Below, one piece after another: positions 6,904 through 14,499 of a stretch of DNA of 64,000 nucleotides. Under the pieces are notes generated by a model, which was given only the letters and a program-made list of their open reading frames with translations, ran no database searches and was not told the origin of the DNA. The stretch is from contig JAJRBZ010000038.1 in the NCBI GenBank assembly GCA_028679185.1, forward strand, positions 1 to 64,000. Direction: 5' to 3'. This stretch comes from Methanoregula sp. Lineage in GTDB: Archaea; Halobacteriota; Methanomicrobia; Methanomicrobiales; Methanospirillaceae. Within the stretch, counting starts at the first letter, position 1, and the number at the start of each line of letters is the position of its first letter. A program made the translations under genes and the position numbers.

Positions 6904-8127
6904 TCATGTGTGGATTCTCGTCTTTCCCGTACCTTGCAGGCTCTTCTGCGCACCACCGTTGTTACTTCGGGAGAGAAGGTGTAAGAGGTTCTTTGCACCT
7001 TCAAAACCGATGGTCCTCTGACTCCCGTGCATGATATCGAGATGTTCAATACCAAGGGCCTTTGCAACGGGTAGTTCCATCATACCTCCAATCAACAGGT
7101 CGATTTTTTTCTCCTTTAGCTTTTGCACGATAAGATCCTGCCCGGGTTCGATGAGTATTTCACAGCCTGTCAGAGCAAGACTGCGCAGTTTTTCGCTGAT
7201 GTTCGAATCGAAGTCTACAATAATCAGCACGGGATTAATGCCGTTTTCTATAAAAAAACGGGTCATGGAGATTGCCCGGGTGGGACCGCTGACAAGGGCA
7301 ATCCTCCGGTCTTTGAATGACGAATAATCAACATCAAACCGTTCGAGTGGAATATCCGGAATTTGCTCGAGTCCAAGTGCCTTATTTACTCTCTTAAGAA
7401 ACTGCCGGGTTGCATCAACACCAATGGGGAGCTCTTCGATAATCCAGGGTATCCCGCACTTTACGTACAATAATTCTGCAGCATCTTTTCCCGCAGGCTC
7501 ACAGAGCACGACAGTAAGTGCAGCCTTTCCGAGCATTCTGATCTCCTCCAGAGTTGCATCAGCCGTCAGCACGGTATTGACCTTTATGCCGAAAAGTCCC
7601 AGATCCCGGACGATTTCCTGTAAATCCGGACCGCCCCTTAAAAGACCGACCAGGTTAACGGAACGCGGGTCGGTTTCGTCTCTTTTCTCTACGAACTCTT
7701 CGACCAGCCTTGTCAAGGTCTCGCTGTACCCCGTCCTGAAATCACCTTCAAACCCCCCGGCATCAATCCCGATGACCGGTGCGGTGGTTGCGGTACCCCG
7801 GATTGCACTCTGGACATCCTCACCGATAATTTCTGAAGCGCAGCACGACAGGACCGCGATGAGATCGGGATGGAGCTCCCGGTCAAGATCCTCTATTGCC
7901 GTTCTGAGCTTTTGATCGGCACCGAAAATCACATCCTGTTCACCGAGACATGTCGAATAGATTTCCGAAGGGTGGTCGCCCCGCATGCCCATGATATAAT
8001 TAATATGGTATACACAACCTTTTGGCCCGTGCACCAAAACTACGCATTTTTTAATAGAAATGAGTGCTTTGATTGCGCCAAAAAGCTTGCATGTAGCCCG
8101 TGGTATCCTGACTGCCATTCCCGACAT
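6904..8127 (-). CDS. Nitrogenase-like component 1 protein (NifD/NifE/NflD superfamily), stand-alone
   Basis: This protein of about 407 residues belongs to the oxidoreductase/nitrogenase component 1 family. Cluster-ligand-type cysteines appear in RATCKLFGAI, HGPKGCVYH, STCLGEQDVIFG and VLSCCASEIIGEDV, matching the P-cluster or scaffold-cluster positions of NifD/K/E/N and their relatives. Family members bind Fe-S clusters and accept electrons from a NifH-like partner to reduce a substrate or build a cofactor. No nifH, nifK, cfbC or other partner lies in the window, and a zinc-ribbon membrane protein and lon/hsp20 flank it. It is shorter than NifD, with a reduced N terminus. It differs from CfbD in the residues after HGP, so I do not assign cfbD. 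The ATG at 8127 is preferred to the track's TTG. Confidence 0.8.
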   Translation of the reverse strand: MSGMAVRIPRATCKLFGAIKALISIKKCVVLVHGPKGCVYHINYIMGMRGDHPSEIYSTCLGEQDVIFGADQKLRTAIEDLDRELHPDLIAVLSCCASEIIGEDVQSAIRGTATTAPVIGIDAGGFEGDFRTGYSETLTRLVEEFVEKRDETDPRSVNLVGLLRGGPDLQEIVRDLGLFGIKVNTVLTADATLEEIRMLGKAALTVVLCEPAGKDAAELLYVKCGIPWIIEELPIGVDATRQFLKRVNKALGLEQIPDIPLERFDVDYSSFKDRRIALVSGPTRAISMTRFFIENGINPVLIIVDFDSNISEKLRSLALTGCEILIEPGQDLIVQKLKEKKIDLLIGGMMELPVAKALGIEHLDIMHGSQRTIGFEGAKNLLHLLSRSNNGGAQKSLQGTGKTRIHT

Positions 8128-12305: not shown

Positions 12306-13568
12306 CTACACCGGATCCCGGAGCAGGGGACAGGTCATGCAGTGCCCCCCTCCACGCCCGCGGCTCAGCTCTGATCCTTCAAATTCCAGCACGTCAATAC
12401 CGGCCTTACGGAAATTCCGGTTGGTAAACGTGTTCCGGTCTGTTGCGATTATAACACCGGGCCTGATAGCAAATACATTATTCCCGTCATCCCACTGCTC
12501 GCGGGCAGCTTCATACGTATCGCCGCCGGTGGGAATGACTTCCAGATGGTCCACGTCCAGTGCGTCTGCAACTGCGCTGAGAAAATTCTCTTCCTTTGTT
12601 ACTTTGAACATTGCCCGCTCGTCTCCTGGCCGGATGCTGTATGCCTGCATGTCGTTCACTACATCGGGAAATACAGTAACCTTATCCACATCAAGCATGG
12701 TAAAGACCGTGTCAAGGTGCATATGTGCCCGATTCCGGCTCATCGTCGTGACAATGATCCGGTCTGCGGCATGCCCGTCAAAAAGTGAATATGCCAGCTG
12801 CTCGATCATCTGACTCTGTGTCCGCTCGCTCATACCTATAAGGACCGTCTTGTTTCCGATGGGCATTACATCACCTCCTTCAAGGGATGAACGGGCATTA
12901 TCCATGATACCGGACTGGTGTTCATTTTCAGGCTGAGGGAACCAGAACCTGAAATCTCCATCCCGGAACATCGGATGATTGTGATATACTGTTGCTGTAT
13001 TGAACGATTCCGGTCTTCGGGCAGGCCAGTACATAGGGTTGATGGAGACCCCGTTATAGATCCAGCTTGAGGAATCGCGGGTAAAGAGTGTGTTGGGAAG
13101 TGGCGGGAGAATAAAGGCATCAGGACCGGCAACAGCGGCGGTGAGCGAGAACCGGGCCAGGCCTTCCATATAGATGCATTCAAGTTCGCTGACAGTGAGT
13201 CCCCCGATAAGATGTCTGGCGAGATCATCAGCTCCCATGTCCATCAGGCAGATCCGCACTGCATCAAGGGCAGAGATACCGACGGACATTCTGGCTGATA
13301 CTTCCTCAATAATCTGCCGGCGGATCTCATATCCTGAAGACAATGTCTCGGCCAGAAGTTCCTGCAGATAATAGACTTTCACACCCTCATTACGAATGAG
13401 GTGTACAAACGCGTTATGTTCGTAGAGTGCCCGGTCAACCCACAGGACATCATCAAAAAGGAAGCTGTCGTGGTTGGACGGTGTAAGCCGCCGGAGACTG
13501 AGGTCAGGCTGGTGCACCATGACCGCGCGAAGCTTCCCTACTTCAGAATATACGCCAAATTCTGTCAT
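12306..13568 (-). CDS. arcA: Arginine deiminase
   Basis: This 420-residue enzyme hydrolyses L-arginine to citrulline and ammonia, the first step of the deiminase pathway. The catalytic cysteine lies at the C terminus in [14 protein letters not shown] (about 411). Other landmarks are [19 protein letters not shown] and [10 protein letters not shown] with catalytic Asp, Glu and His. Length matches the family. GAGGGA precedes the ATG. It follows arcC by 16 bases, so the two are probably cotranscribed. Citrulline would need an ornithine carbamoyltransferase encoded elsewhere. Confidence 0.95.
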
Positions 13569-13584
13569 TTTCCCTCATAACACC

Positions 13585-14499
13585 TTAATCTGGATGTACT
13601 GTTGTTCCTGAATCACCGGCAAGGATTGCCTGAATGTCTGCAAGTGCCCCGATAGCAGCCCGCTTCCCTGTCTTCTCAACAAACGTACAGGCAGCTTCCA
13701 CTTTCGGACCCATGGAGCCTGCCGGAAATTCGTGACGTTTCAGTTGCCCGGGGGTTGTATCCCTGATGAGACGGGCAGACGGTCTTCCCCAGTCAAGATA
13801 CACTCCATTCACATCTGTTGCCATGACGAAAATATCAGCTTTGATCTCCTGTGCGAGAAGGCCGCTTGCAAAATCTTTATCTATGACTGCTTCGACACCT
13901 GTCAGGTTGCGTTCGTTATCCGGCTGGTACATGACGGGAATACCTCCTCCGCCGGTACAGATTACGATTGCTCCCTGCTCAAGCAGCCAGATGATCGGTC
14001 GGATCTCAAAGATCCGTTTAGGTCTTGGTGAAGGAACAACCCGCCTCCAGTGATCCCCATCCTGACGAAAAAACCAGCCTTTTTTTTCCACAATCCGATC
14101 AGCATCGGTTTTTGTATACTGAGGGCCGACAAACTTGGAAGGGTTGGTAAAGGCTGGATCAACAGGGTCAACCTCAATCATAGTAAGAATAGTAGCAAAA
14201 GGGACATCCCCGGGGATCTGATTTCGGAGTTCCTGTTCAATCATATACCCGATCATACCTTCGGTCTGGGCATCGAGAACATCAAGGGGGTAGGGTTCAA
14301 CCCGTGTATAAGCCGCTGCCTGCAGTGCCAGCAGGCCGACCTGTGGTCCGTTCCCGTGCGAGAGCACAAGTTCATATTTTTGTGCCAGCGGTGCCAGTGA
14401 ATGGGCTGCCGTCCGGATATTGATGCGCTGTCTTTCAGCAGTCATCGGCTCGCCCCGTTTCAGAAGGGCATTTCCTCCAAGAGCGATTACGATTCTCAT
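13585..14499 (-). CDS. arcC: Carbamate kinase
   Basis: This 304-residue amino-acid-kinase-family enzyme transfers phosphate from carbamoyl phosphate to ADP, giving ATP, ammonia and CO2. Diagnostic stretches are [12 protein letters not shown] at the N terminus, [12 protein letters not shown] (about 45), CTGGGGIPV (about 182) and [10 protein letters not shown] (about 265). It is the first gene of arcC-arcA. GGAGAG precedes the ATG. With arcA it suggests energy or nitrogen recovery from arginine. No arcB or arcD antiporter lies in the window. Confidence 0.95.

Follow-up and report, generated by a model that had tools for sequence, protein, structure and literature searches.

A candidate homodimeric, nitrogenase-like reductase encoded by a single orphan gene in Methanomicrobiales

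We describe an orphan nitrogenase component 1-like gene (NflD-like, P0001) from a methanogen lineage. In our best explanation, to which we assign a probability of roughly one half, its product would be a homodimeric, nitrogenase-like, ATP-dependent, CfbC-driven and cluster-bearing reductase. The gene was found in a 64,000-nucleotide stretch of DNA (hereafter, the window), which comprises bases 1-64000 of contig C70 in a 2.1-Mb archaeal MAG of Methanoregula; the nearest gene-bearing relatives of this genome are Methanoregula MAGs as well. The gene occupies positions 6904..8127 on the minus strand, with its ATG at 8127 and its stop codon at 6904-6906, and encodes 407 aa. The following evidence concerns the protein and its predicted cluster-binding residues, its place in the nitrogenase family tree, and the genes that surround it or could serve it in the genomes that carry it.

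Family membership, cluster-type residues and predicted fold

The orphan protein scored 285.9 bits on the Pfam profile PF00148 (Oxidored_nitro; cut-off 28.6; E = 6e-85), the match running from residue 13 to 383 and across profile positions 1-392 of 399. A chance match is therefore excluded, and the protein is a member of the nitrogenase component 1 superfamily. Within that superfamily, it fell below every NCBIfam equivalog cut-off: the best-scoring model was NifE (TIGR01283, 140.3 bits vs. a cut-off of 505.1), while BchB reached 133 bits (cut-off 490) and CfbD (TIGR03282) 68.3 bits (cut-off 268.4).

A convergent Hsp20 gene flanks the orphan gene on one side, and an unrelated gene of 159 aa lies 298 bp upstream on the other. 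In whole-genome profile searches, the orphan was the sole hit of PF00148 in the window, and PF00142 had none there; this bears out an earlier note on this DNA, which had reported no nifH, nifK or cfb gene within the 64 kb. At 129-2553 on the minus strand, a NifU_N (IscU-like) gene, a class V aminotransferase gene resembling cysteine desulfurase and a DsrE-like gene stand in a row. We discarded these neighbors and Hsp20 as partners, as they are not conserved beside orthologues. Elsewhere in the window, at 12306-14499, inspection by eye suggests an arginine deiminase gene next to one for carbamate kinase; such a pair serves arginine fermentation and is seldom seen in a methanogen.

Residue correspondences were read from a family-wide alignment that included NifD, NifE, CfbD and BchB. 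The same note had listed four cysteine motifs in NifD/K/E/N-like positions (CKLFGAI, HGPKGCVYH, STCLGEQD, and VLSCCASE). All four are present in the translation, and the positions proved right for Cys13, Cys38 and the Cys95-Cys96 pair. Cys13 (codon 8089..8091, minus strand, as are all codons given here) is the first P-cluster-type cysteine, aligned with NifD C62 and NifE C37, where CfbD has Ser. Cys38 closes the HGPKGC motif (residues 33-38, codons 8014..8031) and takes the NifD C88 position, and Cys96 (codons for Cys95-Cys96, 7840..7845) takes that of NifD C154, with Cys95 as an extra cysteine of the clade. The STCLGEQD cysteine is not conserved, since certain orthologues carry Ala, Ser or Gly instead. 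Judging from the alignment, the more telling invariant cysteine is Cys209 (7501..7503), missing from the note's list, which aligns with the cofactor ligand NifD Cys275 / NifE Cys250 and has no equivalent at that position in CfbD or BchB.

A histidine is also retained: His367 (7027..7029), in the motif LDIMHG, aligns with the histidine of NifE LDINHGR and archaeal NifE DHNHDR. It sits two columns from NifD His442, and the His442 column itself holds Ile in the orphan protein. Cys13, Cys38, Cys96, Cys209 and His367 were invariant in all 53 members checked, as well as in two distant homologues, in genomes G439 and G540. Cys95 and Cys96 are both kept in 53/53 members and read Ser-Cys in the two distant proteins. 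We dropped His362 as a candidate ligand, since it was conserved in only 31/53. As far as the accessible text of PMC3464626 goes, the archaeal single-subunit NflD (methanogenesis marker 13, i.e., CfbD) has two such cysteines, and that text names no clade of single-gene proteins in which all of the cysteines are present.

An AlphaFold2 model built on 13 sequences from the window and the loci had a mean pLDDT of 79 and a pTM of 0.80, with low-confidence loops around residues 40-70. Its best PDB matches were chains of nitrogenase K, NifN, NifE, NifD, BchB and Mar (MarDK), with TM scores of 0.70-0.77, and holo-NifEN with bound L-cluster was among the matches. Homology and the predicted model together establish the fold class.

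Phylogenetic position and distribution

From three data sets, we built trees of CfbD, the orphan clade and the two paralogue groups D and K, and rooted them on CfbD. A group of D plus K that excluded the orphan clade was recovered with support values of 87/95, 99/99 and 99/96, and the orphan protein branched outside both Mar clades. The G439 and G540 proteins branched in between. CfbD sequences formed a separate 100/100 clade without the orphan, and the same genome has a CfbD gene of its own, so the orphan is not CfbD; in the unrooted tree, CfbD is the lineage nearest to the orphan.

Forcing the orphan together with NifE was rejected (AU p = 2.4e-6, lnL loss of 112). The protein thus falls inside neither the CfbD nor the NifE clade, the two placements that had been named as speaking against an uncharacterized clade; such a clade is what the tree, the NifE test and the equivalog scores point to. 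Joining the orphan clade to all K proteins was not rejected in any data set (p = 0.31, 0.21, 0.24), joining it to all D proteins was rejected in one of three (p = 0.17, 0.017, 0.085), and joining it to VnfE plus the D proteins of a nitrogenase-like system on contig C18 (described below) was not rejected (p = 0.10).

The preferred place of the orphan clade, as read from these sequences, would accordingly be before the D/K duplication, with a root that rests on the long CfbD branch. The placement of CfbD in the tree has been called unreliable (PMC12176620), and this caution applies to the orphan clade too. A branch external to D and K, combined with the full cysteine set, means that the orphan may preserve a stage in nitrogenase evolution. 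Tentatively, and with the odds against it, the clade and the G439 and G540 lineages could predate the D/K duplication as a living homodimer whose P-cluster would be symmetric and whose active site would already hold a cluster derived from NifB. Both the position close to this duplication and the complete P-cluster cysteine triad with a Cys275 equivalent go beyond what the earlier note had foreseen.

We surveyed the clade in a sample of 394 genomes from the window's own phylum. Orthologues occurred in 56/232 Methanomicrobiales genomes, with identities of 52-89% in the sample of relatives; about three quarters of the genomes of this order are without the gene. Copies in f7, a different family of this phylum, were nested among the Methanomicrobiales sequences in the tree and were probably acquired by transfer. 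Two deeper homologues occurred, in G439 and G540. A further match (222 bits, in G416) was rejected as a clade member: a Cys209 counterpart is missing from it, and a further component 1 gene as well as a NifH gene adjoin it. That locus (L140, G416:C123:15062-18607) comprises two divergent component 1 genes and NifH, then an ABC transporter permease gene, with methyltransferase and FAD-dependent oxidoreductase genes upstream.

Mo-nitrogenase NifK was present in 38 of the same 232 genomes, with no overlap with the 56 carriers (hypergeometric probability 9e-6, a value that ignores relatedness and genome size). Both genes occur within genera g1, g5 and g27, never in the same genome.

Genomic context and competing explanations

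The genome of the window holds seven other PF00148 places: a pair on C18, a short pair each on C28 and C32, and a CfbD gene at C70:84033, distinct from the orphan and 20 kb past the window end. Searches with PF00142 recovered three true NifH genes, one beside each component 1 pair, and a NifB gene is on C94. With three NifH genes in the genome and none near it, the gene is therefore an orphan only in its neighborhood. The C18 system (L015, G000:C18:14701-18195) encodes NifH and two component 1 proteins (473 and 484 aa), which branch in the tree as sisters to VnfE and VnfN; it is possibly a group VI nitrogenase-like system and was also found in f7 and in several Methanomicrobiales genomes. At C28:1260-4171 (L016) and C32:5305-8234 (L017), a CfbC-type NifH gene is followed by a short component 1 pair, nflD and nflK, and the C32 NifH passes the NCBI CfbC model (405.8 vs. 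a cut-off of 402).

Nearly every Methanomicrobiales genome checked had one copy of this CfbC-type NifH-nflD-nflK locus. Methanomicrobiales carriers of the orphan gene usually had exactly one NifH, adjoining nflDK, and in single-NifH genomes that NifH was usually the CfbC-type one, as was the case in most of the carriers with complete genomes. If such an organism makes F430, the same NifH must therefore serve CfbD. The earlier note had suggested that the protein may act as a homodimer, together with a distant NifH-like partner. The usually single, CfbC-type NifH and the lack of a shared component 1 partner lend indirect support to both halves of this suggestion. A partner in a recognized pathway, which had been thought to count against an uncharacterized system, was found in part, in that the single NifH belongs to the F430 pathway.

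The gene neighborhoods bring in the first competing explanation. In Methanoculleus-type genomes, the orphan gene ends a co-directional run of cfbA-cfbE-cfbD-cfbB-ilvE and itself, at about 11 loci (complete or almost so in L050, L051, L053, L064, L146, L148 and L150, and cut by contig ends in L141, L145, L147 and L149). In the genome of the window, cfbA, cfbE, cfbD and cfbB are on the same 86.5-kb contig as the orphan gene, about 18-22 kb past the window end. This linkage keeps an F430-linked role alive and could mean a tetrapyrrole substrate: the protein might be a second CfbD-like enzyme, homodimeric and CfbC-dependent, that modifies F430 or a related Ni/Co tetrapyrrole. CfbC being the only NifH in most carriers, a presumed homomeric nature like that of CfbD, the proximity to CfbD in the tree and the position of the G439 homologue behind cobD, with cbi genes nearby, all agree with this. 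We nevertheless regard it as rather doubtful, as the orphan keeps a Cys275-type ligand and the third P-cluster cysteine that are missing in CfbD and BchB, and about three quarters of Methanomicrobiales genomes do without the gene. Moreover, outside Methanoculleus-type genomes its position varies, and most carriers, Methanoregula included, have no adjoining cfb genes; the G439 homologue even belongs to a genome with neither an mcrA match nor CfbD. In the f1 genera g22 and g29, molybdopterin genes and a PP-loop gene are found in the vicinity, but in other orientations or with gaps, and we claim no operon there. No NrpR-type operators (GGAA-N6-TTCC) were found upstream of the orthologues.

The G439 locus (L160, G439:C41) bears on several of the readings. 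In this genome, which is 97% complete, the order is cobD, the homologue, the sole NifH gene close behind, and a convergent NifB-like gene, with corrinoid/cbi genes nearby; we found no mcrA match, no CfbD and no other component 1 gene. The NifB-like protein scores 262 against a NifB cut-off of 344 and is missing the RPG motif, and it keeps the radical-SAM CxxxCxxC, HPC and HCxxC cysteines. As neither MCR nor any other component 1 protein was detected in this genome, the homologue is the obvious client of this NifB-like protein. The locus is a candidate minimal nitrogenase-like system with one NflD, one NifH (NflH) and one NifB-like gene.

Of the 34 genomes checked, which included carriers as well as non-carriers, 33 had NifB itself; its presence does not depend on the orphan gene, because methanogens need NifB for MCR activation (PMC12176620). 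We found no match to MCR alpha (mcrA) in the Methanoregula MAG, which is probably an assembly gap given its completeness of 97%. The presence of NifB, and the use of L-cluster-like clusters in methanogen MCR activation (PMC12176620), would also suit a NifE-like scaffold or carrier that takes an [8Fe-9S-C] cluster from NifB and hands it to a client, such as the MCR activation complex. NifE is the top NCBIfam model, at 140 bits, and the protein has the NifE-like LDI-M/N-HG motif and the Cys250 equivalent. We consider this role unlikely: joining with the NifE clade was rejected (p = 2e-6), MCR activation is needed also by the majority of Methanomicrobiales, which have no such gene, and G439 has a homologue but no mcrA match, so that the client would be missing there; the adjoining NifH in that genome suits a redox enzyme.

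A less likely possibility still is a D- or K-type subunit of an ordinary heterotetramer with a distant partner, such as NflK of the CfbC locus. In Methanomicrobiales carriers, nflD and nflK are retained next to CfbC, so nflK could serve as the K subunit there, and trees that join the orphan clade with K were not rejected. However, the f7 carriers (G232, G250, G259 and G267) show no nflK, the f7 genomes being without nflDK, and this pair does not track the orphan gene, being equally present in genomes without it (G033, G040). Judged from draft genomes, no component 1 partner is constant across carriers. G005 and, at 85% completeness, G250 have only the orphan and CfbD as component 1 genes; the single-contig genome G540 has only its homologue and CfbD, and G439 only its homologue. 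Other carriers are without the C18 pair. Finally, family cut-offs, the tree and the residues exclude a CfbD duplicate, a NifE fragment, MarD and BchN/B.

We thus return to the homodimeric, CfbC-driven reductase as the preferred reading. The orphan protein would act as a single catalytic subunit, two identical copies forming the dimer. Cys13, Cys38 and Cys96 of both subunits would hold one P-cluster-type (or [4Fe-4S]) cluster at the interface, and in each subunit Cys209, probably with His367, would bind an [8Fe-9S-C]-type cluster made by NifB, or a related one. The NifH-like protein of the genome would deliver single electrons at the expense of ATP; for most carriers this donor could only be CfbC, which F430 biosynthesis uses as well. 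The data show the family and, by homology and a model, the fold class; they also show strictly conserved ligands, no consistent K partner, NifB along with a usually single CfbC-type NifH, and a preferred tree position outside D and K. The homodimer, the cluster types, CfbC as donor and a catalytic instead of a scaffolding role are what we infer.

Two papers from 2025 (PMC12176620; PMC12552129) give CfbD as the sole homodimeric, or homomeric, representative of the Nif family and put the members with large clusters after the D/K duplication. The orphan clade is, within this known superfamily, an apparently homomeric variant with a ligand set so far attributed to heteromers, and we found no described function or clade name for it in the open-access literature. 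It offers a direct test of whether large clusters preceded or followed the split into two subunits. If the pre-duplication reading is true, the clade would represent a missing intermediate between CfbD and the heterotetrameric nitrogenases, and in G439 one gene each for NflD, NflH and NifB would make up a complete minimal system. As a target, the clade involves one small gene, and the methanogen groups that have it are known and in part cultivable.

Comparison with known systems

The closest parallel is CfbD, likewise a single-gene component 1 protein of methanogens that has no K partner and is served by CfbC. In contrast to the orphan, which has both ligand sets, CfbD has only two cysteines of the P-cluster triad, and a counterpart of Cys275 is missing. 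NifE and VnfE share with the orphan the cysteine triad, the Cys250 equivalent, the LDI-x-HG motif and the best NCBIfam score. NifE, however, is a subunit of the FeMo-cofactor maturase, whereas the orphan has no NifN partner, and none of the Methanomicrobiales carriers tested has a nif operon. Compared with NifD/NifK, the Cys275 equivalent is kept, but the His442 column holds Ile, with a His two columns on, and there is no NifK partner.

The methylthio-alkane reductase MarDK, a D/K heteromer with a NifB-type cluster (PMC12552129), resembles the orphan in being nitrogenase-like and in having the P-cluster triad and a Cys275-type ligand; the orphan differs in having neither a K subunit nor a neighborhood with O-acetylhomoserine sulfhydrylase. 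The MCR activation complex (McrC, Mmp7; PMC12176620), in turn, consists of unrelated proteins outside the component 1 family that are found across methanogens, and it explains the presence of NifB in methanogens without nitrogenase.
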